Positions 23,691-44,350 of a DNA stretch of 64,000 bases are shown one piece after another; the stretch's first letter is position 1, and every line of letters starts with the position of its first letter. The DNA is from Sphingopyxis bauzanensis (GTDB lineage Bacteria > Pseudomonadota > Alphaproteobacteria > Sphingomonadales > Sphingomonadaceae): positions 367,054 through 431,053 of the forward strand of contig NZ_NISK01000001.1 in the NCBI RefSeq assembly GCF_002205675.1, given 5' to 3'. The notes beneath the pieces were generated by a model, which was not told where the DNA came from, searched no databases, and was given only the letters and a program-made list of their open reading frames with translations. The position numbers and the translations under genes were made by a program.

Positions 23691-23753
23691 GTCCGGGCCC
23701 CTCTGGCGAGAGCTGTCGGTTCTCTCGCGATGTCGGACACGATCCCTCATCGT
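23691..23753 (+). promoter_or_regulatory. Structured leader upstream of terC, shared with the Bax-inhibitor gene
   Basis: Contains CCGGGCCCCTCTGGCG (23693-23708) and GCGATGTCGGA (23727-23737), both identical to the leader at 44279-44330. Between them is a perfect 7-bp hairpin GCGAGAG/CTCTCGC (23706-23712 with 23722-23728). GTCCG (23691-23695) can pair with CGGAC (23734-23738) as a closing stem, and a second hairpin ACGAT/ATCGT follows (23739-23753), ~20 bases before the GTG start. The conserved loop bases with a varying stem indicate a cis-acting RNA. It may correspond to the terC leader motif reported for alphaproteobacteria; not confirmed here. Confidence 0.75.
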
Positions 23754-23773
23754 TTCCGGCCGGAGATCCGCCC

Positions 23774-24769
23774 GTGGACTTTGCATTCCTGTTCATCGAC
23801 TGGCTCGGCAAGCCGCTCTGGATGTGGCTTGCCTTCATCTCGATCGTCATTGCACTTCTCGTCTTCGATCTCGGCATCCTTCACCGCGACAACCGCGAGA
23901 TCGAGGTGCGCGAGAGCCTAGCCCTCTCCTCCATGTATATTGGCCTCGGCCTTGCCTTCGGCGTTTGGGTCTGGTGGCAGCTTGGGCCTGAATCCGGAAT
24001 GAACTATCTGACCGGCTTTGTAGTCGAGAAGACGCTTGCGCTCGACAACGTCTTCGTCATTGCCCTGATTTTCTCCTTCTTCGCCGTGCCTCGCAAATAT
24101 CAGCACCGGGTGCTCTTCTGGGGCATTCTGGGTGTGATCGTGCTGCGCGCCATCATGATCGGCCTCGGTACGACGCTGGTCTCGCAGTTCTCGTGGGTGC
24201 TCTACATCTTCGCCGCGTTCCTCGTGATCACCGGCATCAAGATGCTGTGGATCGGCGATAAGGAGCCGGAGATCGGCAACAACCCGCTCATCAACTTCAT
24301 GCGACGGCGCTTCAACGTGACCGACGAGCACCACGGGCAGGACTTCTTCGTCAAGAAGCCGCATCCCGCAACGGGAAAGCTCGTCTGGTTCATGACGCCG
24401 CTCTTCATGGCGCTGGTCATGGTGGAGATCGCCGACGTGATCTTCGCGGTCGATTCGGTCCCGGCGATCTTCGCCATCACCACCGACCCGTTCATCGTCT
24501 ACACGTCGAACATCTTTGCCATCCTCGGCCTGCGTGCGCTGTATTTCGCGCTCGCCGCCATGATCCATCGCTTCAAATACCTGAAGCCGGCGCTTGCGAT
24601 CGTGCTGATCTTCATTGGCTCGAAGATCTTCATCGCGGACCTTCTAGGGTTGGAGAAGTTCCCCGCCGCGCTCTCGCTCGGTGTGACCTTCGCCATCATC
24701 GCCTCGGGCGTGATCTGGAGCCTGATCAAAACGCGCGGCAGCCAGGAGGCGCATAGTAATGGGGGATGA
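23774..24769 (+). CDS. TerC/Alx-family integral membrane protein
   Basis: 331 residues from a GTG with a GGAGAT site. About eight membrane spans; family signatures include EKTLALDNVFV (~85), VFAVDSVPAIFAIT (~225) with the conserved acidic residues in the membrane, and FIVYTSNIFAILGLRALYF. Family members export or handle metal ions such as manganese (Alx, MntP-like roles) and respond to alkaline pH or tellurite. The structured leader upstream suggests RNA-level control by ion or pH. Substrate is inferred only at family level. Confidence 0.9.
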   Translation: MDFAFLFIDWLGKPLWMWLAFISIVIALLVFDLGILHRDNREIEVRESLALSSMYIGLGLAFGVWVWWQLGPESGMNYLTGFVVEKTLALDNVFVIALIFSFFAVPRKYQHRVLFWGILGVIVLRAIMIGLGTTLVSQFSWVLYIFAAFLVITGIKMLWIGDKEPEIGNNPLINFMRRRFNVTDEHHGQDFFVKKPHPATGKLVWFMTPLFMALVMVEIADVIFAVDSVPAIFAITTDPFIVYTSNIFAILGLRALYFALAAMIHRFKYLKPALAIVLIFIGSKIFIADLLGLEKFPAALSLGVTFAIIASGVIWSLIKTRGSQEAHSNGG

Positions 24770-24913
24770 CCGCGCAAAAGCTACTTTAGAGCGTCGTCAC
24801 ATTGCGGCGCCGGAATCGACTGATTGGCCTCCTAACTCAATGCTCGGCGACGTCCGCACCCTGCGCAGACTGTCGCCGCCCATCCGAAATAGAAAGAAAA
24901 GGAGACCGTTCCC

Positions 24914-25216
24914 ATGGGGGACTTCATCGCTGCTCTGATATCCTTTTTCCTGATCGGCCCGCTCCAGAATGAGATTGCCGATGTTCTCACCGCCACGCGT
25001 GCGCCACAGGAGATCGTGGCACAGGTGACGGAGTGCGCCGCCGCCGCTGGTCCCGCTATCATTGATCGCGCGGTTGATGATCCCTGGTGGGCCGCTTCCA
25101 GTGCCCTCAGCGTCTGGGTCGGACTGGTCGAACCGACTGCCCTCCTCGTCGAGGCTGCACCGGGCTGCGATGCAGCAGTAAAGGCCGCGCAGCCATTCCT
25201 GATAGCGGAGGAATGA
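24914..25216 (+). CDS. Small uncharacterised protein, possibly membrane-associated or exported
   Basis: 100 residues with a GGAG site upstream. The N terminus MGDFIAALISFFLIGPLQNE is hydrophobic; two cysteines (TECAAA, PGCDAA) are present in the rest, which is Ala-rich. Downstream of terC. No family recognised. Confidence 0.5.
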   Translation: MGDFIAALISFFLIGPLQNEIADVLTATRAPQEIVAQVTECAAAAGPAIIDRAVDDPWWAASSALSVWVGLVEPTALLVEAAPGCDAAVKAAQPFLIAEE

Positions 25217-25275
25217 TCAAGACCGCCGCCTGTACCAAAGTCATGAGCGGCTGCCTTAAGCCGCCTCATGCTGTG

Positions 25276-25485
25276 TCACCGAGTTGATTTCACAGCATTC
25301 GCTTGGGGTTTCACCCGATAAACGGTCTTGACCAGAACAGCTCCCATATTCGGAGTGGGATCAGTTAGAATGACAATCCTCAAGCCTTCACGCTCTCTCC
25401 AAACAACATCCATTCCATCCTTGATATCTGGCCGGATTGGGTTGAGAAGAACCCTTTCAAAAACATAGGGTAATCGCGGGGCGGT
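25276..25485 (-). pseudogene. C-terminal fragment of a gene split by the IS110 element
   Basis: About 68 residues on the minus strand with coding-like sequence (NPIRPDIKDGMDVVWRERE, LRIVILTDPTPNMGAVLVKT) ending in a stop at 25276. Upstream the frame runs into the IS110 element and becomes its antisense. No matching N-terminal part was seen on the far side of the IS. Parent family not recognised. Confidence 0.45.
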
Positions 25486-25590
25486 GATCACCGTTGCGGT
25501 TGCGATGCGTAGGCAGGGTGGTTGCCCCCCGATAGGTTGAAAAACGGGCTCACGATTGACACCGGGCCCAGCAACAAACGGGAGACAACC

Positions 25591-26616
25591 ATGAAGCAGT
25601 TTATCGGCCTCGACGTATCTTTGAAAGACACATTTGTATCGGTGCGTGAAGACGGCGAACGGATCTGGCGCGGCAAATGCCCGTCTGATCCCAAATTGAT
25701 AGCAGAGCTTGTCCGCAAGCGAGCTGCGAATGTGGAGCGTGTCGTGTTCGAGACGGGGCCTCTGTCTGTCTGGTTCTATCATGCGCTGAGACAGGAAGGA
25801 TTGCCCGCTATCTGCATTGATGCCCGCCATGCCAAAGCGGCGCTCGATATGGCCCGAAACAAGACCGATGCGAATGATGCGGACGGCCTGGCGCATCTTG
25901 CGGAGGTTGGCTTTTACCGCGAGGTACGCGTGAAGAGCTTTGACAGCATGCTGACCCGCACGCTGATTGCGGCGCGCAATCAGCTGCTGAAGGCGACGAC
26001 CCAGATGTTGAACCAAATCCGTGGTCTGATGAAGACGTTCGGCCTGATTGTTCCCAAGGGGGCTGGCCGTGTGTTCGAGGGCCATGTGCGCAGCCTGCTG
26101 GCGAGCAACGCAGGGCTCGAACAGATCCTCCTGCCGGTTCTTGAGGCCTGGCGAGGCATGCGCGCCCGCGCTGCAGAGTTGAGCAAGCAGCTCGTTGCAT
26201 CCGCTCGCGCGAGCGAGCAATGCCAATTGCTTTCGTCGATTCCGGGGGTCGGCACGGTGACCGCCTCTTCGTTCGTTGCGGCAATCGAGGACCCGAAAAA
26301 CTTTCGGAAGTCGCGTTCGGTTGGTGCTTGGGTCGGCTTGACGACCAGGCGTTACCAGTCGGGCGAAGTCGATTATGACGGTCATATATCCCGGCGCGGC
26401 GACAGTCATCTGCGCGGGCTGCTGTACGAGGCGGCAGTCGTGATCCTCACGCGCACCACGGCGGACAGCGCGCTGCGGATCTGGGGCCTCAAACTCAAGG
26501 AAAAGATCGGCTTCAAGCGCGCGGCCGTCGCGGTCGCGCGCAAGCTCGCTGTCATCATGCATACTATGCTTCGTACGGGTGAACTGTTCGACCGTTCGAT
26601 CGCTGCCGAGGTCTGA
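25591..26616 (+). CDS. IS110-family (DEDD) transposase
   Basis: 341 residues from the ATG at 25591 with GGGAG upstream. N-terminal DEDD RuvC-like domain: FIGLDVSLKDTFV (first D), VFETGPLS (E), and NKTDANDADGLAHLA (the DD pair, ~90). The C-terminal transposase-20 domain has SSIPGVGTVTASSFVAAIED (~215) and the serine region in RRGDSHLRGLLYEAAV. Full length, probably active. Family members recombine DNA guided by a structured bridge RNA from the element's own non-coding end. Confidence 0.93.
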   Translation: MKQFIGLDVSLKDTFVSVREDGERIWRGKCPSDPKLIAELVRKRAANVERVVFETGPLSVWFYHALRQEGLPAICIDARHAKAALDMARNKTDANDADGLAHLAEVGFYREVRVKSFDSMLTRTLIAARNQLLKATTQMLNQIRGLMKTFGLIVPKGAGRVFEGHVRSLLASNAGLEQILLPVLEAWRGMRARAAELSKQLVASARASEQCQLLSSIPGVGTVTASSFVAAIEDPKNFRKSRSVGAWVGLTTRRYQSGEVDYDGHISRRGDSHLRGLLYEAAVVILTRTTADSALRIWGLKLKEKIGFKRAAVAVARKLAVIMHTMLRTGELFDRSIAAEV

Positions 26617-26673
26617 CATGAGCAATATGACAGCAAGGACCATTATCCGATAAGCTGAACTTCCCTATCGTTT

Positions 26674-26714
26674 GCGCCCATGCTGTGGGCGCGCCGATCC
26701 GTCCCTGTCGGGAC
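26674..26714 (+). ncRNA. Two adjacent hairpins after the IS110 transposase, candidate bridge-RNA part
   Basis: GCGCCCA/TGGGCGC (26674-26680 with 26686-26692) and GTCCC/GGGAC (26701-26705 with 26710-26714) form consecutive perfect hairpins 58 bases after the transposase stop. IS1111-type IS110 elements carry their bridge RNA in this position. Whether it has target- and donor-binding loops matching the flanks was not established. Confidence 0.35.
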
Positions 26715-26720
26715 GCGGAC

Positions 26721-27502
26721 AGAATCATTCCGTTAATGAGGCTGCACCGCCATCATCTCAATGGCGCAGTGCGTCTAAAACATTGGAAGATTCCGGCCCA
26801 CGAAGACCTATCCTGCGGCGGGCATGACTCGACCGCGTAAACGACCCTGTACCCGACAAACGGAATGACCGGCGCGGCCGAAGCTGAAGGCTCTGACAAC
26901 TTCTCTCACTATATCACCTGCGATGACCTCATCGCAGATCGAAGATTTGTGTTCAAAATTATACTTGACCGGGGCGCGATTAAACGACCTCCTGGGATAT
27001 ACCGTCGTCAGCCATGCGAGCCTGAGCATGACGACTAACGGCCACATTGCCCAAGCCTTTGACATCATCATAGTAGTGTTTCATCGGCTATATTTCTCTT
27101 TAGAGCATCGGACTGCACAAATTTCCCGAACGAACCGGTAGCATCGACTGTCGTGGTCAATGTGTCCAACACTGGTCACAATCAGACCCTGGAGGGCTGT
27201 TCCTGAACTGAATTCATAGAAGGTATAAACCAATTCAATGTGGAGACGTCAGGCGCGATTCCAGCCAACCCGTGGCGACATGGCCCCGATCAGCAATCGG
27301 CGGCGATCGTCGCCGGCCAGCCTTTCTTGTGAGATCGATCAGCGATGACGGCAACCAAATTCAAACTTCCGGTAACTGGATCGACCGCGCCGCTTGTTCC
27401 TTGGCCCGTCATTACGCAATGGTCGACGTCGCCCGCCAGCGGCCATGAGACCCCGCACGGCATGTTGGTTGCCCAGGGATGCCGGGGCGGGAGCACCGAG
27501 TC
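26721..27502. other. Gap without a supported gene between IS110 and the CaCA antiporter
   Basis: About 780 bases. Small open frames occur, but none has a ribosome site and recognisable product. Composition is less GC-rich in 27070-27240 than in the neighbouring genes. Confidence 0.4.
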
Positions 27503-28456
27503 TTGACGATCCTGCTCGTCGCGCTCGGTCTCGTGCTGCTCGCCGCGGGCGGCGAGGCGCTGGTGCGCGGCGCGGTGGGCGCGGCTCGCACACTCGGGGT
27601 GTCCCCGCTGCTTGTCGGTCTGACGCTCGTCGGCTTCGGCACTTCGATGCCCGAACTCGTCACCAGCCTGTTCGCCGCCTTCGAGCAGGCGCCGGGCATC
27701 GCCGTCGGCAACGTCGTGGGCTCGAATAGCGCCAACATCCTGCTCATCCTCGGGCTCACCGCGCTCGTCGCGCCGCTCGCCGTCAAGCCGGCCGCCTTCC
27801 GGCGCGACGGGCTGGCGCTGGTCGGCTCGACGATCGCCTGCGTCGCCGCCGTCCTCGTCGGCTTCCTCGACCGCTGGCTCGGCATCGCATTCGTCGCGCT
27901 GCTCGTCGGCTACATCGCTTGGGCCTACCGGAGCGAGCGGCGGCAACCCGACGCAGAGACCGAGATGCACGAGCACGTTGCGGCTGACGCGCCGGTGGGG
28001 CCCAAGTCTGTCCTGTTGTCGGTCGGCCTCGCGCTCGTCGGCATCGCGGTCACCGTCATCGGCGCGCGCATCCTCGTCGGCGCGGCGATCGATCTCGCCG
28101 CCGGCTTTGGCGTCAGCGACACGGTGGTCGGCCTGACCGTGGTCGCGATTGGCACTTCGCTCCCCGAACTCGTTGCGTGCGTGGTCGCCGCGCTCCGCCG
28201 CCACCCGGACGTGGCGCTTGGCAACATCGTCGGCTCCAACATCTACAACGTGCTCGGCATCCTCGGGCTCACCGCGGTGGTGCATCCGATCCCGGTCCCG
28301 CCGGAGATCGCTCACTTCGACGTCTGGGTGCTCGTCGGCGCCACTGCGCTCCTCGCGCTCTTCCTGCGCTCCGGCTGGACGCTGAAGCGCTGGGAGGGCG
28401 GCGTCTTCGTCGCGCTCTACGCCGGTTATGTCGGCTGGCTCGTCGCTACCGCCTGA
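27503..28456 (+). CDS. Calcium/sodium antiporter of the CaCA superfamily (first copy)
   Basis: 317 residues. The TTG start at 27503 is chosen because the resulting MTILLVALGLVLLAAGGEAL aligns end to end with the second copy at 45868, and GGGAG lies upstream. Two inverted halves each carry the alpha-repeat: GFGTSMPELVTSLFAA (~45) with NVVGSNSANILLILG, and AIGTSLPELVACVVAA (~215) with NIVGSNIYNVLGILG. About ten spans. It exchanges Ca2+ for Na+ or H+ across the inner membrane. Very high GC compared with the copy at 45868, suggesting a different history. Confidence 0.9.
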   Translation: MTILLVALGLVLLAAGGEALVRGAVGAARTLGVSPLLVGLTLVGFGTSMPELVTSLFAAFEQAPGIAVGNVVGSNSANILLILGLTALVAPLAVKPAAFRRDGLALVGSTIACVAAVLVGFLDRWLGIAFVALLVGYIAWAYRSERRQPDAETEMHEHVAADAPVGPKSVLLSVGLALVGIAVTVIGARILVGAAIDLAAGFGVSDTVVGLTVVAIGTSLPELVACVVAALRRHPDVALGNIVGSNIYNVLGILGLTAVVHPIPVPPEIAHFDVWVLVGATALLALFLRSGWTLKRWEGGVFVALYAGYVGWLVATA

Positions 28457-28471
28457 TGGAGAAGATGCCTG

Positions 28472-28564
28472 ATGATCCGCAAGCTACCCGCCGAGGCCCT
28501 GCCGGGCGTTGCATTACTGGCCTCGGCGCTCGCGGCGATCGCCAAGCTGACGGTTTTGAGCTAA
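28472..28564 (+). CDS. Possible 30-residue hydrophobic peptide
   Basis: Reads MIRKLPAEALPGVALLASAL and ends AKLTVLS: a positively charged start and one membrane segment. It lies 16 bases after the antiporter gene. It could be a small membrane peptide or the truncated front of a transporter (NhaA proteins begin similarly). Only weak ribosome site. Low confidence. Confidence 0.3.
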   Translation: MIRKLPAEALPGVALLASALAAIAKLTVLS

Positions 28565-28595
28565 CCTTAGCGCACCGACGACTAGGATTGAGACC

Positions 28596-29006
28596 ATGAA
28601 GATCACGACGGAAGCACTCATCGATTCACCGATCGAGACCGTCTGGCGGGCCTTCAACGATCCCGCCGACATCGTGCAGTGGGACGCATCCGACGACTGG
28701 CGCACCACCTGGGCGTCGAACGACTTGCAGGTCGGCGGTCTGCTAAAGCTCCGCATCGAGCCCAGACACGACGGCACGAGTTTTGACTTCGCCGCAACCT
28801 ACACCAGGCTCGAGCCGATGCGGGTGATCGAGTGGCGGACGGATGACGACCGCCATGTGCGTGTCGAGTTCGCAGAGACCGAGGCGGGCGTCGTCGTCCA
28901 TCAAACGTTCGATGCCGAACCAACCCCATCCGTGGACGAGCAGCGCCAGGACTGGCAAGGCGTTCTCGACAACTTCGCTCGGCACGTCACCGCGATTGCT
29001 GGTTGA
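28596..29006 (+). CDS. SRPBCC/AHSA1-like (START-fold) protein
   Basis: 136 residues. Begins MKITTEALIDSPIETVWRAF, followed by DPADIVQWDA and a GGLLKLRIEP segment; ends with the helix QDWQGVLDNFARHVTAI, all typical of Aha1-like SRPBCC proteins that bind small hydrophobic ligands. Normal length for the family. Function in the cell is not predictable from sequence. Confidence 0.85.
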   Translation: MKITTEALIDSPIETVWRAFNDPADIVQWDASDDWRTTWASNDLQVGGLLKLRIEPRHDGTSFDFAATYTRLEPMRVIEWRTDDDRHVRVEFAETEAGVVVHQTFDAEPTPSVDEQRQDWQGVLDNFARHVTAIAG

Positions 29007-29112
29007 CGGCAAGCCTACGTTGCACGCGGGGGGTCTCTGGCGGGTGTAGGGCGGCTTTACCGCGTCGTGATCCGAAAGCCGCCGTACCGCTCCACCCTCC
29101 TGCGGCGTCCGT

Positions 29113-29226
29113 TGTCGCAGAACTCCTAAGTTTTGCGACAAAATCGCCGGCGTTGAATTTTCAGGGGAATTTCTGTCGCAAAAGTCACGTGCAAAAGTCA
29201 AAGTTTCGCGACAGACATTTGCGACA
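29113..29226. repeat. Cluster of TTTGCGACA/TGTCGCAAA repeats resembling a serine-resolvase res site
   Basis: Copies: TGTCGCA at 29113, TTTTGCGACA at 29131-29140, TGTCGCAAAA at 29174-29183 (a perfect inverted pair with the previous copy), TTTCGCGACA at 29204-29213 and TTTGCGACA at 29218-29226. Three dyad-like groups within ~115 bp is the layout of Tn3-family res sites. No resolvase gene is nearby, so this may be a remnant of a transposon or a site for an unrelated regulator. Confidence 0.5.
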
Positions 29227-29291
29227 CTTCGCGGCCCGGATTCCGGGCCGCTGCGAACGTGGTGCAGGCTTTAGGATTACTGCGACAACGC

Positions 29292-29630
29292 CTACGCAGT
29301 TTGTCGGGTATCGGCTTCAAGATAACCAGCCAAGCCGTTCAGCAGCGCGTTCCACCCGTGCTTACGGCCTTCGACTCCGTCGCTTGGAGCGATCACACAC
29401 ATCTGTTCAGTGTAAGTAAGTCGTGTTCCGCCATTCTCGTCTCGAAACAAGATTGTGGCCAGCGAGACGGTATGGACGCGCCCGTTCACCGCCATCGAAT
29501 AGGCCAGTACGATGCGTTCTCCTTCCTTGATCTCAAAATAGCGACCCTCGCTGTTGTGCTCGCCCATTGAATTGCGAAACCCGCTCCGCTCGACACGGAG
29601 CTGCTCGCGCTGGGCGCGCTAATTGAGGTC
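29292..29630 (-). pseudogene. SRPBCC/AHSA1-like gene lacking its N-terminal half
   Basis: The minus strand encodes the C-terminal part of an Aha1-like protein: EHNSEGRYFEIKEGERIVLA, then a RLTYTEQM strand and a HGWNALLNGLAGYLE final helix. Upstream, the related reading RVERSGFRNSMGEH runs back only ~25 codons to an in-frame TAG near 29630, where the front half should be. An ATG at 29567 could give a 91-residue product, but it would not make a complete fold. Confidence 0.6.
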
Positions 29631-29701
29631 GAAGCCGTTGCCAAGCGACCATGACCGCAAAAGCCGCTGGCCATTTGCTGCCGCAAATATACAATGGGGG
29701 C

Positions 29702-30601
29702 ATGCGATTTCGTCAGATTGAAGTTTTTCACGCCGTTTATATGCATGGTTCGATCAGTGCAGCGGCGCGGGCGCTGGGCGTGTCCCAACCCTCAGTTTCC
29801 AAAACCTTGCGACATGCCGAGGATAGTCTAGGGTGTTCACTGTTCCAACTTGTCCGGGGGCGGCTGGTGGCAACCGACGAGGCTCATGCGCTGATCCGTG
29901 AAGCTGGCGATATCTTTGACCGTCTGGCGTCACTGCAGCAGACCGCGCGCAATCTTTCGCAAACGGGAGGGGGGCATATCCGCCTAGGTACCGTACCCAG
30001 TCTCGCGCTCGACGTCCTGCCGCAGGCGATGGCACAATTTCGACGCGACTGGCCTCGCGTGACCTTTGAGGTGCATACCTATCATCATGACGATCTGGTA
30101 CGGTCGCTGATCGAACGCGAAACCGACGTTGCGATTGCCTATACCCCGCCGCCCCACCCCCGGCTGACCAGTGCTCCGCTGGCAGAAGGCGAGCTCGTCG
30201 TTTTCGCCCCTGCCAATACGTTCGGCAATGTGGATGGCCGGCTACCGCTCGAACGGCTTGCAGACCGCGATCTGATCGGAGTTGCGGCAACGGGACCGAT
30301 CGGGGACGTGCTCACCCGGGCCGTGCAAAGCGGTGGCATTACTTACCGCGAAGCCGTGTCGGTGCAGACCTTCTTTATCGCGGCTAGGCTTGCGCAGCTC
30401 GAAGGTGGGGTCACTGTCATCGATGAATTTACCGCGCGCGCATCGCAGACGCGCGATTTTACCTGGTTTCGAAGCGATCCTGCCCTCGATTTCACCGTCT
30501 CGTGGGTCACGCTGGAAGATCGCCCGCCCTCAAAAATCGTGGGACAATTTCTTCGAACATTTGGCGATGTTCTCGAGGCGGTGCGTGCCGTCACATCATA
30601 G
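29702..30601 (+). CDS. LysR-family transcriptional regulator of the D-amino-acid cluster
   Basis: 299 residues from the ATG at 29702. HTH in residues ~17-40 (GSISAAARALGVSQPSVSKT), then a LysR substrate-binding domain. The two genes downstream on the same strand encode a D-amino-acid dehydrogenase and a dicarboxylate/amino-acid symporter, so it probably controls their use of an amino acid. About 120 bp separate it from the dehydrogenase. Confidence 0.88.
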   Translation: MRFRQIEVFHAVYMHGSISAAARALGVSQPSVSKTLRHAEDSLGCSLFQLVRGRLVATDEAHALIREAGDIFDRLASLQQTARNLSQTGGGHIRLGTVPSLALDVLPQAMAQFRRDWPRVTFEVHTYHHDDLVRSLIERETDVAIAYTPPPHPRLTSAPLAEGELVVFAPANTFGNVDGRLPLERLADRDLIGVAATGPIGDVLTRAVQSGGITYREAVSVQTFFIAARLAQLEGGVTVIDEFTARASQTRDFTWFRSDPALDFTVSWVTLEDRPPSKIVGQFLRTFGDVLEAVRAVTS

Positions 30602-30719
30602 CTTGAGGCTATGTCTGTAACAAAGGTTGCTGGTTTGCGACCGTCCGGGTTTCGATCATGTTTTTGGGAAAGGTGCGCCGCTGAGCCAGCGGCCGGTTTT
30701 CTGGAGACGGACTCGATAG

Positions 30720-31973: not shown

Positions 31974-32125
31974 ACAGCGATGGAGCGAAACGAATAAGAA
32001 CGGCCGGATAAGGGCGCCGACCCGCCGTTTCGATCAATCCACCGGCGTGGGAACGGCGGGGCCTCGGAACAGAATATGACAAAAGGTCGTCCAGCGAGAC
32101 GACGAAGGGAGCGGGTTGCAAAAAG

Positions 32126-33436: not shown

Positions 33437-33476
33437 GTTTGCTATGCTCTTGCGCCGCTCGATCGCCGCCGCCGAG

Positions 33477-34820: not shown

Positions 34821-34821
34821 T

Positions 34822-34880
34822 CGGGAGTTCGGGACGAAACCGGTTTATGTCAATCATATCCAGATGTCCGGACTGAACAC
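34822..34880 (+). pseudogene. Possible tail of an IS481-type transposase
   Basis: The reading VYVNHIQMSGLNT resembles the conserved end of the IS481 transposase at 16025 (IVNPIHQMPGLNT). Only ~18 residues are present, so this is a weak match. It abuts the 3' end of the gene at 34935, as another IS481 copy lies near the related fragment at 13663. Confidence 0.25.
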
Positions 34881-34934
34881 ATGTCATACTCGGATCGAAC
34901 ATTGCCGAAGCTGGATCTTCCTCGTGAGGAGTGG

Positions 34935-36564: not shown

Positions 36565-36916
36565 GTCTTCTCTCCAGCTTGATCTGCGGAACGGATGCTG
36601 ATCGCTTCCGGCTACGCGTCATGGTGCTGCCCCGGTCGGTACACGGGCGCGTCTCGTTCCCGGACGTCGGCACGCGATGATCGGTCCAGCGCCCCGAGGC
36701 TTCCCTGCCGACTGCATTGCCCAGCTGCGAGGGCGGGAACGGTACGCTGACTACGGTTCATGCGATGCTTTGTAAGATTATTAGTTACAATATTGTTCGA
36801 TATATCCGAAAACGACTAGAGTCAACCGGCCGGACGAAGTCGTTCGTTTGACCGAACGCTCGTTGATTTCTATGGGGTTGCTCTAATGTTAAGTTGTGTC
36901 GAAGGAGGTCATGGAC
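36565..36916. promoter_or_regulatory. Divergent intergenic region with an XRE-type operator candidate
   Basis: 352 bases between two divergent genes. 36770-36815 is AT-rich and likely promoter DNA. A perfect inverted repeat CGTTCG (36841-36846)/CGAACG (36853-36858) lies about 60 bp before the regulator start, a plausible site for the XRE protein. Confidence 0.4.
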
Positions 36917-37243
36917 ATGTCGTTGGCGATGAGGCTGCAGAACCTTCGCACGGCAAAGCAGCAATCGCTTCAAACAGTAGCTGACGCCATCGGCGCGTCG
37001 AAGGCGCATATCTGGGAGCTTGAGAAAGGCACCGCCACAAATCCGTCGATCGAACTTGTCCGAAAGCTCGCCAATCACTTTGAGGTATCTATCGCAAGCC
37101 TTGTCGGTGAGAAGCCGGACGAAGATAGCGATGACGAGCATTTGCTCGTCATGTACCGTGATCTGAAATCTCTCGACCCCCAAGATCGCCTGGTCCTTGG
37201 GGATATCATCAAAGGCATGCAGAAGCGCCGCTCTGGGGGGTAG
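36917..37243 (+). CDS. XRE-family helix-turn-helix regulator
   Basis: About 108 residues. The ATG at 36917 is preferred because AGGAGG (36903-36908) lies eight bases upstream; an ATG at 36911 would be too close. HTH in residues ~15-50 (LQTVADAIGASKAHIWELEK), followed by a short acidic linker and a C-terminal helix (DPQDRLVLGDIIKGM) that probably mediates dimerisation. Likely represses its own divergent promoter region. Confidence 0.85.
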   Translation: MSLAMRLQNLRTAKQQSLQTVADAIGASKAHIWELEKGTATNPSIELVRKLANHFEVSIASLVGEKPDEDSDDEHLLVMYRDLKSLDPQDRLVLGDIIKGMQKRRSGG

Positions 37244-37473
37244 CGGAGCGGGCGCTCTCAGCACTGGTCTGAAGGCCCGACCCATACCCTCTTGGTTGTT
37301 ACCGGCGCCACGTCCGCAGCAAAGGAGTTCGGCGCGGTCGGCGCTTTGGTCGATTCGGCTATTGCCGGTTCAGTCAGTCGGTCTTGGGGCGAATATTCGC
37401 ATAGCGGATATTCGGCTCGATCGATCGAGGATGTTCAAGAAATTGGTAAGCTAACCGCGCTAAATTTCTTCCC

Positions 37474-38067
37474 ATGAAATGGTTTTTTGTAATCGCACTG
37501 GCGCTGACCCCGCTTTCCGCGTCCGCGCAGGACATTAGTGGAACGGGCCGTGCAAAGGACGGCGACTCCCTCGACATGGCGGGGATCGTTGTCCGCTTAC
37601 ACGGCGTCGATGCCCCCGAGCTTTACCAGACATGTTCGCGTCAGGGTCAAAGCTGGGCATGCGGGAAAGAAGCGTCGGCGAAACTGGCGCAACTGGTCAA
37701 TGGTGCCGAATTGCGCTGTGAGCAGCGCGATGTTGATGACTATGACCGGATCGTCGCCAGCTGCACCGCACGGCAAGTGGACCTGGGCCAGGCGATGGTT
37801 GAAGCAGGCCTTGCGGTCGCATTGCCACAGTTTAGCGATCGCTATCTCAGCGCCGAGGCGCGCGCCAAGGCCCTCAAACTGGGCATCTGGGCTTCCGACT
37901 TCCAGCAGCCGGCGGATTATCGGGCCGCCAATCCCAGGGCACATCGGCCTAAGCCGCAGGCATCCGTCGTGCGCCAGCCTATTGCATCGTCGGCGCCGTC
38001 CGGCGTCTATTACCGCAATTGCAATGCGGCATGGGCAGCGGGTGCCGCGCCGTTATACCGCGGCCAG
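37474..38067 (+). pseudogene. Exported SNase-like nuclease with truncated C terminus
   Basis: Signal peptide MKWFFVIALALTPLSASAQD, then a staphylococcal-nuclease fold: DGDSLDMAGIVVRLHGVDAP (~30), the RQGQSWACGKEA segment, and DDYDRIVASC (~85). From ~residue 180, YYRNCNAAWAAGAAPLYRG is the start of an Excalibur calcium-binding domain that normally ends with a DxDxDGIACE motif; here it is lost at about 38067. The frame stays open for another 440 codons as the antisense of the CBASS genes, so a long chimeric protein is possible on paper. The break marks the left edge of the defence patch. Confidence 0.75.
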
Positions 38068-38466
38068 ACGACCGAGCGGATCGCCATCGCGCACGCGGTA
38101 AGTAGTCAGGAAGGTGAAATTGGCGCCCGCGGGCGCCGACGCCTTCGCATCGCGGAGCCGCTCAAGCAGCGAGAATTTCTGTCCGCCGATAAAATCGGGG
38201 TCGACGAAATCCTCGAAGCCGAAGCGGCCCCCATATTCGACATGCCATTTGACCTGATGATAGTCGGCCGGGACCTTCACCGGTCCCGAGCGCGCGATCG
38301 CGGGATCGTACAGAACCACCACATCGTCGAAGGCCTTCGGGCCGTCGGCCTCGAACGTCACTTCGACGACGCAGGATTGAGGCACGAGGAGGTTGAGCGC
38401 ATTTTCCCAGAACACCCGCGCCTGGTAATTGTCGCCGTGCCAGCGCGCCGTGACCGCATTGCTCAT
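38053..38466 (-). pseudogene. N-terminal part of a nuclease-like CBASS effector (Cap4/DUF4297-like)
   Basis: Begins MSNAVTARWHGDNYQARVFW; residues ~38-85 contain VEVTFEADGPKAFDDVVVLY and DYHQVKWHVEYG, consistent with a PD-(D/E)xK nuclease core (acidic FDD and the QxK of YHQVK) as in the DUF4297 domain of Cap4 effectors. The sequence stops at residue 137, exactly at the join with the exported nuclease gene, so the rest, including any sensor domain, is missing. The start at 38466 lies 22 bases after the cyclase stop. The effector identity is inferred from motifs and position. Confidence 0.55.
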
Positions 38467-38487
38467 GATCGCATCTCGCCTCGGGGG

Positions 38488-39390
38488 TTAGGACAGCGGA
38501 AACTTCGGACCGAAAAGCGCTCGCCACGCCTTCAGCGCCTCGCCATTCCGTCCGCGCCGCGCATGGTCGATGGCCAGCGTCGCCTCGCGGCTCGCCTGCT
38601 GGAGGAGGTCGCGTGCGCGAGTCTTGCGCGCGAGATCCATCCCGTCGCTGACCGGCGGTCCGAGGCCGGCCGGATCGGGCCACGCGTCGAAGATCCGGTC
38701 GGCGAGCGTCGAGAAGAAGGCCTGGATTTCATAATCGAAGCGGCCGTGCCAGCCGCCGTGGAGGCATTCGAGCGCCATCACCTCGATCAGGAACGACGGC
38801 TTGACCGGCTTCTCGCCGTGACGCGCCTGATTGTTCCAATATTTGACCATCCGGACGAGCCCCTTCCATTCGCTGGAAAAGGCCTGATGCGCGGTGGTCG
38901 CTTTCTGGGCGTGCGTTTCCGGGTTGGTGCGGATCCACTCGCCGAGGTCGCGGTCGGGAATCTCATAATCGTCGCCGTCGGCGAAGGACGGGACGACGTC
39001 GATGCTAAGCACGCGGTAATCGGTATTGTCGTCGGCATCGGGCACGACCCCGAACGAAATGCCGACCGACCGCCCCTGTTTGCGGACCGAGTCCTCGCCA
39101 TATTTGTCGACCAGCGCCGCATGGAAATCGTCGATCACGACCGACGGCGTCTTCTGCCGGTATGCCTTTTCATCGTCACCGAGCACGAAGAAGATGTCAA
39201 TGTCCTTGAGCGGCTTGGTCTTGGTCCAGCGCTTGTAAGAGCCCGTCAGAAAGTCGCGGTCGATCGCAAAGCGCGTCCGCAGAAAATCGCGGACTTCGGT
39301 GTGGCGCTTGCTCGCATTCGCCTGCTCCTTGTCGTTGAGCTCGAGCCGGCTCTTGAACTTGCGGAAGGCTTCCTCGGTCGTGAGCGTCAT
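38488..39390 (-). CDS. CD-NTase (cGAS/DncV-like) nucleotidyltransferase of a CBASS system
   Basis: About 300 residues from the ATG at 39390 that overlaps the HORMA stop (ATGA). Catalytic signature of the pol-beta-like fold: [10 protein letters not shown] (the GS motif, ~45) followed by [10 protein letters not shown] (the two metal-binding aspartates, ~60) and SIDVVPSF (third Asp, ~130). CD-NTases make cyclic oligonucleotides after phage infection, which activate an effector that kills or disables the cell. The HORMA partner places it among HORMA-regulated (type III-like) systems. The enzyme appears intact even though the effector is truncated. Confidence 0.85.
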
Positions 39391-39887
39391 GCGCGCCTCC
39401 AATAGGCGGCGCTCGCGCCGAGCCCGTTATGATCGATGGTGCTGCCGAGCGCATGGCGTGTCAGCCCGGCGGTCGACCGGCACGCGCCGTCGCCCCAGCC
39501 GCTAACGCTCGGGTGCCCGGGCGTCACCTGAAGCACGATGTCATACTTGGCGTGCGACGGCGCGACGCCTGCTTTCTTCATCGCATATTTGAGCTGCTCC
39601 ATGTCGGCATAGAAACTGCCGTCGCCGCCCGACCATTCATAAGCGATGTCGAGATCCCAGCGATGGATCAGTTCGTCGGTCACCGGATGAAAGATTTCGA
39701 GCACGACGCGGCGGAGATGCCCCGACTCCATCCACGAGCGGATCGCGCGCTGGTTCTTTTCCCAGTCGGCGACGAATTGCGCCGGGCTGAGCCCTGCTTC
39801 GCGGATGATTTCCTTGAAGCTTCTGAGGATATTGTCGGCCACGAAGGTGACCGAATGGGTGTAGCTATAGGCTGAAACGACGGTCAT
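39387..39887 (-). CDS. Bacterial HORMA-domain protein of a CBASS system
   Basis: 166 residues: [20 protein letters not shown] at the start, [20 protein letters not shown], then [19 protein letters not shown] and [20 protein letters not shown], matching bacterial HORMA proteins that bind and activate CD-NTases when they sense a phage peptide. C-terminal [12 protein letters not shown] forms the closing safety-belt segment. Its stop overlaps the cyclase start. A TRIP13-type ATPase, which normally resets HORMA proteins, is not encoded nearby. Confidence 0.8.
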
Positions 39888-39918
39888 GATCCGAGAAACC
39901 CCGCTGCATCGAAGCTGA

Positions 39919-40431
39919 GCCCTGCGCTCGCCTCATGCGCAGTGGCTCTCCGATGTCTGCGCGGCCGACGCCGCGTCGACGACCGCGTGGCGCCAGCGCC
40001 GCGCGATCGTCCTCGGCGGCTTTTCGACGGGAGCCGACCTCCCCCACGACGCCGCCGACCTCGAAGGGTTCGGCCACAGTCCCGATCACGAGCGGCGGGC
40101 GCTGGCCGGCCTTCGTCTCGTCCGCGACGCGTCGGCGCGCCATTGGTGGCGGCAATTTGTCGAAGCCGAGAACGCCGACCAGGCTTTCGCGGCGCTCACT
40201 CTGTTGCGCCGGACCGCCGATCGGCGGTCGGCAGCGTGGCTCGGCGTCGACGTCCGCTTCGACCGCGACAGCGATCCGATCGCCTGGCGCAAGGCCGCGC
40301 ATTGGGAGCTCAACGAGCGCGACTTCTGGAACGAGGCCAGCAAGCGCGAGAAAGAAGCTGCCCGCCAGTTTCTAGACAAGAAGATCTCAAGAAATATCGC
40401 GCCCTGGTACCGCGCGGGCAGCGCGACCTGA
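39919..40431 (+). pseudogene. C-terminal fragment of a probable NACHT-type defence protein
   Basis: Open from a TGA at 39916 to the stop at 40431 without a credible start. Contains RRAIVLGGFSTGADLPHDAA, ASARHWWRQFVEAENADQAF, LLRRTADRRSAAW and KREKEAARQFLDKKI ending RNIAPWYRAG. These features resemble the helical C terminus of large NACHT/HEAT antiphage ATPases. The ATPase part is absent. The fragment faces away from the HORMA operon, so a join lies within ~30 bases upstream of the HORMA start. Confidence 0.5.
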
Positions 40432-40446
40432 CCGAACCCGGCCAGA

Positions 40447-40855
40447 TCACGCGTCGCGGGGATCGACAATCCGCATCGTATCGGGGTCGATGAGCAAGCG
40501 ATAGCCGCCCGCCTCGGCGAGCTTATGCGCATAGGCGTCGAGGTCGGGCACGTCGGCACTGACGTCGAGCGGCTTGAAGGCGGTCGAGCGGTAGCGAACC
40601 GCCCCCTCGACCGGCTCCATCCGGATCGCCACCGCAAAGCATATCGTATCGCCCGCAAGGTCGGCCCAGTTGTAATAGAGCGCTTCGATCGCCTCGCCCT
40701 CCGCCGCATCCAGCTCGGCGCCCTCGAACGCATCAATCTCGAAGCGTGCCACCGGCGCCTTGTTTAGCAAAACATCCCCGGCGATCGCGGCCAGCTCGGA
40801 CTCCCATATCGCGTCGAAACGAAAGCTCTCGGCGGGCTCGACCCCCGCCCGCGCC
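40447..40855 (-). pseudogene. C-terminal fragment of an unknown protein at the right edge of the defence patch
   Basis: From about residue SFRFDAIWESELAAIAGD to the stop at 40447 it is well coded and acidic (LAGDTICFAVAIRMEPVEGA; LIDPDTMRIVDPRDA). Upstream the frame runs into the ABC permease sequence in a different frame, so its own front is missing. No family recognised; probably foreign cargo of the same patch. Confidence 0.5.
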
Positions 40856-41101
40856 CACGCCAAATCCGAACAGAGATGGGCCGATGGCGGCAAACACGCC
40901 AAAGGTCGCCATGGCATATGCCGCCGTTCGGGTGCCGCCATCGCTCATGGCAATGGCGAACAGGCCGTAAAACGCGACCGGCAGCAGGATCGTGGGCAGG
41001 ATAAACTGCGGCATGCGCCAGCTCTTGCGAATTTCGGCCATACTCTCGATGGCGTAGAGCCGCGATTGAGGGACGAGCGATGGTGTGTCTGGGTTGGTCA
41101 T
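40856..41101 (-). pseudogene. ABC-2 permease, N-terminal third only
   Basis: Starts at the ATG overlapping the ATPase stop (TAATG). Encodes SWRMPQFILPTILLPVAFYG and AMATFGVFAAIGPSLFGFGV, the first two membrane segments of an ABC-2 exporter permease, then breaks near 40856 into unrelated sequence. A complete protein would have about 250 residues and six spans. The break is the right edge of the defence patch and should leave the ABC ATPase without a partner. Confidence 0.75.
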
Positions 41102-42024
41102 TACGCGGCCTCCTCAAAACGGGTCTCGTCAGATTCTGGACGCATCAAGCTGGAAAGCGCATCTTCAAGGCTCGCAGCCTCGACCCGCAAATCCGTACAA
41201 TCCTCCGCAATGTCCAAGAGCGAGCGCAGGGTCGCAGTGGCATCGTTGCATAGCATTCGAACCTCACCTCCCGATCGCTCCACGCGGATCGCGCCCGGCA
41301 GTTCGGCAAGCTGCGCTACGGAACGACGGGTGCGGCAGCGGATGGTCGAACCCGCAGTCCCTGCGCGGATGTCATGTGTCGAACCATCGGCGATCACGCG
41401 GCCCCGATCGATCACAACGATGCGATCGGCCAGCACCTCTGCCTCCTCGAGATAGTGCGTTGTCAAAAGCACCGCCGCGCCCTCATCGGCGGTGTCGCGA
41501 ACGGTGCTCCACAGGCCGCGCCGGGCTTCGGCATCGAGGCCGGTGGTCGGTTCATCGAGGATCAGCAGATCGGGCCGCCCGCATATCGCAAGCGCGAATT
41601 GCAGTCTGCGCGTCTGCCCGCCCGAAAGCGCGCCCGCCCGGCGGCTGGCAAGATCGATCAGCCCGGCCAGGGCCAGTGTCTCCTCTACCGATCTGGGCAT
41701 GGGATAATAACCGACCTGAAGCGCCACGATCTCCTCTACGGTCAGGACATCGGGCAGGCTGGCCGATTGCAGCATGATGCCGAGCCGTGCCCGCGCTGCC
41801 GGGCGGCGTGGATCGAGGCCGAAAAGCTCCGCCTCTCCGCGATCGGCCAGCAGACGACCCGTCAGAACGCCGACCGCAGTGGTCTTTCCCGCGCCGTTGG
41901 GCCCAAGCAACGCGGTCACTTCGCCGGGGCGGATATCGAGTTCGAACCCGGCCAGCGCCTGAACGCTGCCCAATCGCTTTTCCACGGCGATGAGCCGGGC
42001 AATGGCGGATAGGTCGGATGTCAT
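41101..42024 (-). CDS. ABC transporter ATP-binding protein
   Basis: 307 residues from the ATG at 42024 (GGGAG site). Walker A LLGPNGAGKTTAVGVLTG (~40), signature LSGGQTRRLQFALAICGRPD (~135), Walker B LLILDEPTTGLD, and H-loop TTHYLEEAE. This is the DrrA/NatA type used by ABC-2 drug or lipid exporters. The partner permease gene is translationally coupled but truncated. A palindromic operator lies upstream in the divergent promoter region. Confidence 0.9.
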   Translation of the reverse strand: MTSDLSAIARLIAVEKRLGSVQALAGFELDIRPGEVTALLGPNGAGKTTAVGVLTGRLLADRGEAELFGLDPRRPAARARLGIMLQSASLPDVLTVEEIVALQVGYYPMPRSVEETLALAGLIDLASRRAGALSGGQTRRLQFALAICGRPDLLILDEPTTGLDAEARRGLWSTVRDTADEGAAVLLTTHYLEEAEVLADRIVVIDRGRVIADGSTHDIRAGTAGSTIRCRTRRSVAQLAELPGAIRVERSGGEVRMLCNDATATLRSLLDIAEDCTDLRVEAASLEDALSSLMRPESDETRFEEAA

Positions 42025-42074
42025 GGCAATCTCCCTTGCTGGGTCCGGGTTTTGCCATCCGCGCAAAGCATTTT

Positions 42075-42117
42075 GCAGTGACATACGGCACTGCCAAAAC
42101 ATGACAAATGTCACTGC
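42075..42117. promoter_or_regulatory. Inverted-repeat operator candidate between ABC ATPase and amidohydrolase genes
   Basis: GCAGTGACAT (42075-42084) and its exact complement ATGTCACTGC (42108-42117) are 23 bp apart. Inside, GCAGTG/CACTGC and TGAC-AAAT-GTCA make overlapping shorter dyads. The arrangement in a divergent intergenic region suggests a repressor site serving both genes. No regulator is adjacent. Confidence 0.55.
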
Positions 42118-42194
42118 CCACGCCGGTGTAACGCGGTCTATCCGAAAGGCAGTCACCCGTTAAAAGGCGGACCTGCCGTCAAAAGAGGACCAGC

Positions 42195-44012
42195 ATGACC
42201 AGCACACCCATAAGCCGCATCGTCCGAAAAGCCCTGATCTCAAGCATCGCACTGGTTGCGCCCGTAGCCGCCATCGCGCAGCCCACGCTTATCCGCGATG
42301 TGCGCGTGTTCGACGGGGTGGATGTTCACGAAAAGCGCTCAGTCCTGATCGACGGCAACCGGATCGTGGAAGACGACTTTCGGGGCCCCGCACCCGGCGA
42401 TGCGTGGGTCGTGACGTGTGCTGGCTGCACGTTGATGCCCGGTTTGATCGACGCGCACGTGCACGCCTATGCCGGTCTGGACGATGCGCTGATGTTCGGA
42501 GTGACGAGCGTGTTCGACATGTTCACTTTGCCGACCATGACAGCGGCATCGCGGGCGCGCACCGCCGCCCATTTGAATCCCGGCGAAGCGGATCTGTACA
42601 GCGCCGGCATTCTAGCAACCGCACCGGGCGGCCATGGCACGCAATTCGGTATCGACGTACCAACCCTGACCGCGCCCGAAAAGGCCGACGCCTGGGTCGC
42701 CGCGCGCATTGCCGAAGGGTCTGACTACATCAAGATCGTGGTTGAAGAGGGTGGCGGGGTCATCGGTCGCAGCTTGCCGACGCTCGATCAGCGCATCGTG
42801 ACCGCGCTGGTCGAGGCAGCGCACCGCCGGGACAAGCTGGCGGTTGTGCATACGATCACCAAGGCGGCTGCGCAGGTGGCGATTGCTGCGGGTGCCGATG
42901 GCCTTGTCCACTTCTTTGCCGATGCGCCCGTCGATGCGGAAATGTTGGCCGCGATGAAGGAGCGCGGCATGTTCGTCAGCCCGACCTTTGCGGTGTTCGA
43001 GAGTTTTGCCGGTCGCGGGGGAAGCGGCGAACTGGCCGAACATGCGGGGTTTGCCACGCTGCTCGGACGTGAGGCTGTTGCGAACCTTTCAGCGGCCACC
43101 GAAAGCGACCGGATAGGCGCCTTTGCCCCGGCTATGCAGGCGAACATTCTGGCGCTGACCAATGCGGACATCCCGATTCTGGCTGGAAGCGACGCGCCCA
43201 ATCCGGGGACATGGTTCGGCGTGTCGCTGCACCGCGAACTGGAACTGCTCGTCCAGTCGGGCCTCAGCCCGCAACAGGCGCTGGTCGCTGCCACATCAGC
43301 TCCAGCGCAGGCGTTCGGGATCGCGGGTCACGGGAGAATCGCAGACGGTGCCTTTGCCGATTTGTTGCTGGTGCGCGGCGATCCGACACGCGATATCGCT
43401 GCCACCCGAGATATTGTCGAAGTCTGGAAAGACGGCCAGTCAGCAGAGCCGCTGCGCACGGAACGCCGCGAACAGATCGCTGCTGCCAGCGCTCAGGGCG
43501 GAACGGCGAAACCCTTGCCGCAGGATGGGAGGATCGCAACATTCGCGCAGACCGGCGAAACGGTGATGATCGAGGCGCCGTTCGGCAGCTGGAACGTCTC
43601 CACCGATGCAATGATGGGTGGCAAATCCACCGCGCAGGCGTCGCTGACCCCGGACGGCGCGCTGCGCCTGACGGGCACGGTCGCAGAGGGCAGTTTTGCA
43701 CAATGGGCCGGAATTTCATGGATGCCCGGCGAGCGGATGATGGCACCCGCCAATCTTTCAAGCGCAACCGGCATTGCATTTCGCATTCGTGGCTCAGCGA
43801 GCGGCCCCGGCGTGATGGGCTTTTCCGAAGCGGGCGGCCAGCAGCCAGCGCTTTCGCAGATCGAGATCGGCGAAAACTGGCGCGACGTCACTGTGCCCTT
43901 CGCCGACCTCCCGCGCTTCGACAGCAGCGGAACCACCATGCTGCTGATCGGAATGTTCTCACCCGGCGATTACTCAATCGAGGTTGACCAGATACGGCTG
44001 GTTGTAGAGTGA
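42195..44012 (+). CDS. Exported amidohydrolase fused to a C-terminal CIA30-like domain
   Basis: 605 residues. Signal peptide to about residue 28 (SIALVAPVAAIAQP). Residues ~60-420 are a metal-dependent amidohydrolase: MPGLIDAHVHAYAG with the HxH ligands, a lysine-containing DYIKIVVEEGG, VVHTITKAA (His) and LAGSDAPNPGTWFG (Asp). Residues ~450-600 resemble the CIA30/NDUFAF1 beta-sandwich domain (FGSWNVSTDAMMGGKSTAQA; WAGISWMPGERMMAP). Hydrolysis of a cyclic amide or peptide-like substrate in the periplasm is likely; the fused domain may bind carbohydrate or protein. Substrate unknown. Confidence 0.85.
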   Translation: MTSTPISRIVRKALISSIALVAPVAAIAQPTLIRDVRVFDGVDVHEKRSVLIDGNRIVEDDFRGPAPGDAWVVTCAGCTLMPGLIDAHVHAYAGLDDALMFGVTSVFDMFTLPTMTAASRARTAAHLNPGEADLYSAGILATAPGGHGTQFGIDVPTLTAPEKADAWVAARIAEGSDYIKIVVEEGGGVIGRSLPTLDQRIVTALVEAAHRRDKLAVVHTITKAAAQVAIAAGADGLVHFFADAPVDAEMLAAMKERGMFVSPTFAVFESFAGRGGSGELAEHAGFATLLGREAVANLSAATESDRIGAFAPAMQANILALTNADIPILAGSDAPNPGTWFGVSLHRELELLVQSGLSPQQALVAATSAPAQAFGIAGHGRIADGAFADLLLVRGDPTRDIAATRDIVEVWKDGQSAEPLRTERREQIAAASAQGGTAKPLPQDGRIATFAQTGETVMIEAPFGSWNVSTDAMMGGKSTAQASLTPDGALRLTGTVAEGSFAQWAGISWMPGERMMAPANLSSATGIAFRIRGSASGPGVMGFSEAGGQQPALSQIEIGENWRDVTVPFADLPRFDSSGTTMLLIGMFSPGDYSIEVDQIRLVVE

Positions 44013-44278
44013 GCTGGACCTTGACAAAAACCTCTCCCTTAGCAGTGTACCCATTCGATAGGCGAATAAGGTGAGCGTTACAGAAAGCATCACGAGCAGA
44101 CATTCGGCAATCCAGCCGAAAGCACGACATTCACGCCAGACACTTTTTTTGACGAAACGCGCTATTGGCGCCTACAGAACAATTTACTGAAAGCTGGGTG
44201 AAACAACAGTTAGGTAAGTTCGACTCCGAACGAATCCATTGACACTTGTCCTGCGCACGATTATTGGAAAGTTGCGAG
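44013..44278. other. Non-coding interval before the leader RNA
   Basis: No open frame with a ribosome site. It presumably contains the promoter that produces the leader and the Bax-inhibitor mRNA. Confidence 0.4.
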
Positions 44279-44350
44279 CCGGGCCCCTCTGGCGGACGAT
44301 GTGTTAGAGTGCATTGTCTGCGATGTCGGATCGCTCCCCAGAAGGGGGGC
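44279..44350 (+). promoter_or_regulatory. Structured leader upstream of the Bax-inhibitor gene, shared with terC
   Basis: CCGGGCCCCTCTGGCG (44279-44294) and GCGATGTCGGA (44320-44330) are identical to the terC leader at 23693-23737. The hairpin between them has different sequence but the same pairing: GCGGACGATG (44292-44301) with CATTGTCTGC (44312-44321), ten pairs including two G-U. A second hairpin GCTCCCC/GGGGGGC (44333-44339 with 44344-44350) follows. The start codon lies 71 bases further. Compensatory changes between the two loci support a real RNA structure. Confidence 0.75.

Follow-up and report, generated by a model that had tools for sequence, protein, structure and literature searches.

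Why should two unrelated membrane-protein genes of Sphingopyxis bauzanensis, some 20 kb apart, carry the same leader? The question concerns a stretch of 64,000 nucleotides of contig NZ_NISK01000001.1 (positions 367,054 to 431,053 of the forward strand; hereafter the window), in which one leader precedes a terC/alx-type gene and the other a gene of the Bax-inhibitor-1 (BI-1) family. The original prediction, made from the sequence alone, had described identical blocks before both genes and taken them for parts of a cis-acting RNA. The blocks are indeed there: CCGGGCCCCTCTGGCG is common to 23693-23708 and 44279-44294, and GCGATGTCGGA to 23727-23737 and 44320-44330. An Rfam 15 scan of the whole window gave exactly two matches at gathering thresholds, both to the terC RNA (RF03067) and one in each leader, in line with a cis-acting RNA (Table 1). 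The yybP-ykoY model (RF00080), named alongside terC as worth running on the leaders, found no match in the window at its gathering score, and terC RNA is the sole family reported there. In a blastn comparison of about 500 bases around each copy, the 16-base block reached an E value of 1.5e-4 and the 11-base block one of 0.09, while everything else stayed at 1.2 or above. Since the flanks outside the two blocks differ, a recent duplication of the two window copies is ruled out.

The terC RNA folds into an outer stem, P1, which the original prediction had not named, an internal loop with the strands GCCCCUCUG and GAUG, and a variable inner hairpin, P2. In an alignment of 42 diverse copies, both sides change in 12 of 16 pairs and 86.9% of cells are paired; the covariation score of 0.479 compares with 0.181 in shuffles, none of 500 reaching it, and with at most 0.147 in slid versions. 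All seven pairs of P2 and five of the nine of P1 covary, the remaining four P1 pairs being constant. The 42 rows are the length classes 40-42 among 65 sequences, themselves selected out of 232 copies for length and divergence from one another; copy 1 of the window (before terC) lies inside the alignment and copy 2 (before BI-1) outside it. A model built from these rows, R1, accordingly scores copy 1 as part of its own training set, at 68.9 bits, and copy 2 independently, at 53.6 bits. The internal loop GCCCCUCUG/GAUG is the same in both window copies and in the 42 rows, many of which came from a text pattern demanding much of the loop. Copies from the Rfam surveys mostly keep it as well, one Pseudomonas group having CAUG; five of the 73 class copies described below were missed by the text pattern and located with the covariance model. 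Both window leaders belong to the terC RNA family, and P1 and P2 are backed by compensatory changes. The claim that a hairpin keeps its pairing with changed letters holds for P2, which differs in letters between the window copies and covaries across the 42.

The RNA is widespread, and the genes behind it are more varied than its name implies. Its own genome holds five copies over the cut-off and a weak sixth, and 75 of the 80 genomes of the genus contain it. Caulobacter vibrioides, part of a control set, also tested positive. Across the class it was found in 52 of 385 genomes (51 over the cut-off), and in the genus of a genome recorded as Pseudomonas sp. SJZ079 in 79 of 249 (78 over the cut-off). 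A pattern scan of named genomes returned at least 119 stretches with the terC RNA pattern; among the matches listed are Sphingobium, Novosphingobium, Rhizobium, Bradyrhizobium, Methylobacterium, Azospirillum, Caulobacter, Belnapia, Paracoccus and Pseudomonas. The five copies of the own genome are followed, in turn, by DUF465, zinc-ribbon and carbonic anhydrase genes; by terC; by DUF465 and terC; by BI-1 and a zinc-ribbon gene; and by DUF465, a zinc-ribbon gene, the weak sixth copy and terC. The class survey took in 73 of the 74 matches outside the own genome, with one (locus L043; L numbers are locus labels) left out for its identical context before TerC. Within 400 bases, the first recognised gene belonged to the TerC family in 49 cases, DUF4112 in seven, TerB in three and DUF465 in two; a DAG-kinase-like gene, an orphan 100-amino-acid family, an uncharacterised protein without a Pfam match and a carbonic anhydrase occurred once each, the last at a match without a clear start codon (L207). 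Eight copies had no reference family behind them. Here Pfam identified a cation P-type ATPase (L214), a CitMHS transporter (L215), the F1-ATPase inhibitor zeta (L187) and DUF533 (L210), and gave no match for the proteins at L208 and L221, the latter with BI-1 further downstream at about +529; L204 and L223 were given no gene assignment. With 49 of 73 class copies before TerC-family genes, a terC gene downstream is common for this RNA and not defining: copy 1 has terC behind it, copy 2 BI-1.

A larger, biased set of 232 copies, pooled from the named pattern scan (118), the class (68), the genus (40) and the own genome (six), has as first gene TerC in 112 cases, DUF465 in 38, a zinc ribbon in 19, DUF4112 in 11, TerB in eight, and BI-1 and DAG kinase in six each. 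Rarer are Na/Ca exchangers and DUF2076 (two each) and the Mrp subunit MnhE, Usp and Tim44 (one each), and 16 copies have none. Among Pseudomonas leaders, a TerC reading frame follows in 74 of 75. As for the arrangement of copies, back-to-back pairs lie between divergent genes, one TerC and one DUF4112, at three loci (L047, L056, L190). Tandem copies about 250 bases apart (L256, 1193-1250 and 1501-1567) occur in the genome of Azospirillum tabaci, which also contributes locus L110, and a cobalamin riboswitch lies close by on the other strand. At L005, L027 and L028, a second, weaker terC RNA (33.9, 40.6 and 41.3 bits) stands within the operon, directly before terC and about 660 bases after the first.

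Is the BI-1 gene behind copy 2 then an isolated case? A BI-1 match is present in 115 of 119 genomes of the family. Most have one BI-1, about 42-51% identical to that of the window; additional copies at 52-63%, present in a few, are called accessory here, the cut having been chosen in this analysis; the other BI-1 of the own genome is 46% identical. We compared 31 BI-1 loci, nine accessory (own included) and 22 core (45-51%), leaving out accessory copies without a locus, such as the second ones in genomes G736 and G774. A terC RNA lies upstream on the same strand at six of the nine accessory loci and at none of the 22 core loci. BI-1 follows it directly in the own genome and at L342, L345 and L347, and with a DUF465 gene between at L344 and L346; at L340, L341 and L343 the text pattern found no upstream terC RNA, and at one core locus (L349) the RNA stands just downstream of BI-1. 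Rfam confirmed the five accessory-locus RNAs outside the own genome at 57.9-68.6 bits. BI-1 also stands directly behind a terC RNA at L007, L015 and L233 (same genus), L065 (Sphingobium sp. Leaf26) and L169, behind DUF465 at L114 (Hephaestia mangrovi), and with its N-terminus at most 300 bases after the RNA at L110; L065 and L169 repeat the order of BI-1 and zinc ribbon. Given the six of nine against none of 22, together with these further loci, the link with BI-1 is a recurrent one and, within this family, is skewed towards a single BI-1 lineage. The suggestion that the Bax-inhibitor instance widens the gene set of the terC RNA is thereby borne out. At L342, a ROSE-type RNA thermometer (1092-1191) was also noted on the opposite strand, close to the terC RNA and BI-1.

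How might such an RNA act? We consider it probable that both leaders, as terC RNAs, adopt an aptamer-like fold that acts in cis on translation of the following gene. The aptamer-like unit would comprise P1, the invariant 9+4-base internal loop and P2. Some signal would stabilise the internal loop together with P1, and the alternative state would leave the P1 strands free to re-pair downstream. The 3' strand of P1 could join a downstream complement to form a second hairpin, and the 5' strand, carrying the invariant GGGCCCCUCU, could in some leaders (Pseudomonas terC, window copy 1) pair over the Shine-Dalgarno (SD) sequence and the start codon. The BI-1 copy, where such pairing is missing, may rely on a small SD hairpin. 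No terminator-like site lies between RNA and gene in either window leader, one weak site being located inside the BI-1 gene, and a transcription terminator mechanism was therefore set aside. Translational control with P1 as the switching helix appears most likely from these predictions, the exact platform depending on the lineage.

Several comparisons favour such control. The predicted unpaired probability of the SD averages 0.257 for 193 genes behind terC RNAs and 0.367 for 300 control genes, drawn from 556 predicted by open reading frame (ORF) length in the named loci (p = 7e-9, this and the other p values being optimistic as related sequences are not independent). Downstream complements of the P1 3' strand score 13.17 in 229 copies against 12.40 (standard deviation 0.15) in dinucleotide shuffles; split by tail, the values are 13.82 against 12.66 for sphingomonad-like copies and 12.88 against 12.31 for the others. 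In copy 1, this complement lies 19 bases downstream, and the alternative hairpin would use up the P1 3' strand. The original prediction had placed a second hairpin after each copy. The hairpin is present in each leader, where it overlaps P1 at its 3' strand instead of simply following the RNA, and is better read as a putative competitor of P1. In copy 1, the duplex between the 5' strand and the start region is predicted at -28.6 kcal/mol, equalled by three of 192 other start regions. The clearest case comes from Pseudomonas, where SD and spacer are nearly antisense to the invariant strand: the mean duplex energy is -19.4 kcal/mol over 48 distinct regions, picked with an SD-like pattern and from leaders related to each other, against -9.4 kcal/mol over 149 control genes from ten 20-kb stretches of ten genomes. 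Duplexes of -20 kcal/mol or lower occur in 27 of the 48 regions and in none of the 149 controls. A retest with starts set by the TerC protein motif yielded a mean of -19.0 kcal/mol, with 27 of 50 at -20 or lower.

Other observations, besides the optimistic p values, weigh against this reading. Start codons behind the RNA are predicted to be slightly more open than in controls (0.464 versus 0.410, p = 0.02). Copy 2 lacks the pairing seen in copy 1, 159 of 192 other start regions being as good. Outside Pseudomonas, pairing of the invariant strand with the SD hardly separates first from later genes (p = 0.08) and is matched by 45 of 200 permuted strands; over 192 leaders, duplexes of the 5' strand with its own start region average -18.24, with swapped ones -18.12. 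A general anti-SD role of the invariant strand in alphaproteobacteria is thus unsupported overall, and we keep it for Pseudomonas and for single leaders like copy 1. The small SD hairpin of the window BI-1 gene is no stronger than in shuffles (z = -0.56). Among the nine BI-1 leaders, this hairpin is clearly better than shuffles in three (z of -3 or lower) and worse in one, with stems that vary from CCUUCG/CGAAGG in the window to CUCGUUG/CAACGAG at L007, L015 and L233 and CUCGUUUG/CAAACGAG at L345 and L347.

Pairing of the apical loop with the start region shows a modest excess that peaks 30 to 5 bases before the start (own -6.74 versus swapped -6.03, z = -5.6; -7.14 versus -6.29, z = -5.4; 209 and 212 copies). 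There is no excess at -60 to -40 or at 0 to +20, and a smaller one at +40 to +60 (z = -2.8); a scan by distance from the RNA gives a second, weaker excess at 63-93 bases. Sphingomonad DUF465 leaders with tight loops lack the pairing, and the two window copies show it weakly. We regard the putative apical-loop pseudoknot as a modest, lineage-specific lead outside the proposed mechanism.

To which signal would the RNA respond? The original prediction had pointed to pH or a metal, with a riboswitch-like RNA as the putative sensor. Its neighbour genes (TerC, cation ATPase, Na/Ca exchangers, Mrp subunit, carbonic anhydrase, BI-1, F1-ATPase inhibitor) suggest cation and proton balance at the membrane, and the regulated set looks like a response that would protect cation balance, proton balance and membrane proteins. 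As to the last, Sec proteins, FtsH and subunits of ATP synthase copurify with the TerC proteins of B. subtilis, where FtsH becomes essential once two TerC proteins are missing (PMC10550928). The window BI-1 protein matches the NCBIfam model YccA, named FtsH protease modulator, weakly (23 bits, far under the cut-off of 353). By analogy with the TerC-FtsH data and from this weak match, a shared theme of membrane-protein quality is possible.

A further comparison is the yybP-ykoY family of Mn2+ riboswitches, likewise a cis-regulatory RNA tied elsewhere to TerC-family genes, and the terC RNA could be its short counterpart for TerC genes, sensing Mn2+ or Mn2+ and alkaline pH. Cation transporters do occur in the terC RNA gene set, Mn2+ efflux activity is described for TerC proteins and a Mn2+ riboswitch controls B. 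subtilis meeY (PMC10550928), and the E. coli alx and mntP riboswitches respond to Mn2+ and alkaline pH (PMC9603457). The two RNA models differ in size, however, with 177 positions for yybP-ykoY and 59 for terC RNA, and neither window copy is called yybP-ykoY. To our knowledge, BI-1, DUF465, TerB, DUF4112 and the F1-ATPase inhibitor are not Mn2+ genes. In the same 385 class genomes, yybP-ykoY matches occur in 57, the own genome included (43 over the cut-off), namely in 26 of 52 genomes with and 31 of 333 without terC RNA, an odds ratio of 9.7 that ignores kinship and genome size. We inspected 20 yybP-ykoY loci, all over the cut-off and 18 of them in terC-RNA-positive genomes: they precede GDT1/UPF0016 genes in 15 cases (called by sequence motif, in the own genome by Pfam), MntP in three (one by Pfam, two by eye), a cation-efflux gene and a Na/Ca exchanger in one each, and TerC in none. 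The separate copy of the own genome (G000:C1:3877-4063, locus L370) stands before a GDT1/UPF0016 gene. As the Mn2+ riboswitch co-occurs with the terC RNA but precedes other genes in the same genomes, this distribution would argue against plain Mn2+ sensing, and we consider a Mn2+ riboswitch an unlikely explanation.

Less easily dismissed, though still rather doubtful, is that the element serves as a binding site for a protein or a processing site for an RNase, or that it reacts to pH, temperature or membrane state with no small-molecule ligand involved. The short invariant internal loop and the stress theme of the genes would suit a global RNA-binding regulator, and divergent and tandem pairs occur at L047, L056, L190 and L256; competition for the P1 strand and burial of the SD are, on the other side, typical of ligand switches, and the present analysis points to no protein. 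That the conserved AUG in GAUGUCGG starts an upstream ORF, acting by translational coupling or attenuation, is very improbable. AUG-UCG is nearly invariant, encoding MSD or MSE in 202 of 232 copies, and in a few Pseudomonas leaders (e.g. L283, L289) the frame ends on the terC start codon. Yet the AUG frame has a median of 28 codons against 42 and 43 in the other two (217 copies); among 201 copies with an assigned start, it stops before that start in 101, overlaps it out of frame in 76 and is in frame in 24; and the letters are accounted for by the P1 strand and the internal loop. We rejected the upstream-ORF reading because this frame is no more open than the other two. A cis-acting terC RNA with translational control through P1 remains the reading we prefer.

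Table 1. Features of the two leaders and the genes behind them; positions refer to the window.
Feature	Position	Strand	Evidence or remark
terC RNA copy 1	23685-23745	+	RF03067, 56.3 bits (gathering score 39.9), E 4.5e-7 (whole window), model positions 1-59 of 59
Copy 1 P1	23691-23696 with 23733-23738	+	sequence
Copy 1 internal-loop strands	GCCCCTCTG 23697-23705, GATG 23729-23732	+	invariant
Copy 1 P2	23706-23712 with 23722-23728	+	7 bp
Copy 1 alternative hairpin, GUCGGA-c-ACGAU-cccuc-AUCGU-u-UCCGGC	23732-23760	+	predicted to use up P1 3' strand; sequence
Copy 1 SD GGAG 23762-23765, GTG start 23774 and next codons	23759-23783	+	complementary to 5' strand 23684-23707; minimum free energy fold
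terC/alx-type gene	23774-24769	+	PF03741, E 2.2e-52; TIGR03718 (R_switched_Alx), E 5.4e-122
terC RNA copy 2	44271-44338	+	RF03067, 55.3 bits (gathering score 39.9), E 7.6e-7 (whole window), model positions 1-59 of 59
Copy 2 P1	44274-44282 with 44326-44334	+	one G/A mismatch
Copy 2 P2	44292-44301 with 44312-44321	+	10 bp, two G-U
Copy 2 second hairpin, GATCGCTCCCC-agaa-GGGGGGC-t-GATC (RNA: GAUCGCUCCCC-agaa-GGGGGGC-u-GAUC)	44329-44355	+	overlaps P1 3' strand; sequence, minimum free energy fold
Small BI-1 SD hairpin	44394-44400 with 44408-44414 (44394-44417)	+	predicted to cover part of SD AAGGAGG 44411-44417; local folds, nine BI-1 leaders
BI-1 gene, accessory lineage	44422-45156	+	PF01027 (Bax1-I), E 1.3e-55
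TFIIB-type zinc-ribbon gene, directly 3' of BI-1	45160-45516	+	PF13453, E 1.3e-18
Na+/Ca2+ exchanger gene, further downstream of BI-1	45868-46815	+	PF01699, E 5e-63; TIGR00367, E 7.8e-73

Among the neighbouring genes of the window, the Na+/Ca2+ exchanger gene is possibly a separate unit from BI-1. A 100-amino-acid ORF without a Pfam match (24914-25216) follows terC; relatives of it stand inside or beside terC-RNA operons at L055, L062, L068, L091, L159 and L184, and it is possibly an uncharacterised partner of TerC. An IS110-type transposase (PF02371, PF01548) lies shortly 3' of terC, at 25597-26613.

The terC RNA class is already in Rfam, and the motif reportedly goes back to Weinberg 2017; its gene reach is the less expected part. 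Both window copies resemble the described family in filling its model and in P1, invariant loop and P2, and copy 1 also in standing before terC, whereas the BI-1 gene behind copy 2 would not be expected from the family name, and the candidate P1 competitor and SD pairing lie downstream of the 59 modelled positions. ROSE-type RNA thermometers (RF00435), likewise leaders of alphaproteobacteria, mask the SD with a local hairpin, but have no match in the Rfam scan of the window. A literature search of partial coverage found no paper on the terC RNA by motif name or accession and no ligand of it in print, nor, among the matches listed, any paper joining the TerC family and Bax inhibitor. Unless already published, the BI-1 lineage, the breadth of the gene set, the contrast with the Mn2+ riboswitch and the apparent anti-SD use of the invariant strand in Pseudomonas would be new.

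In summary, we tentatively propose, as a possibility well short of a firm conclusion, that the terC RNA is not specific to terC and serves as the shared sensor of an alphaproteobacterial post-transcriptional regulon, comprising TerC, accessory BI-1, DUF4112, TerB, zinc-ribbon proteins, cation ATPase and exchangers, a Mrp antiporter subunit and the F1-ATPase inhibitor. It would sense something other than Mn2+ alone, its P1 strands would swap with downstream complements, and in Pseudomonas the invariant strand would act as a direct anti-SD. The ligand of an orphan RNA is usually approached by charting the genes that follow it. Those charted here (TerC, BI-1, cation ATPase and exchangers, Mrp subunit, carbonic anhydrase, F1-ATPase inhibitor) direct attention to membrane-protein quality and to the balance of cations and protons, and the way genes are divided between this RNA and the Mn2+ riboswitch leaves fewer ligand candidates. 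The set also connects TerC with a bacterial Bax-inhibitor homologue in a way that can be tested.

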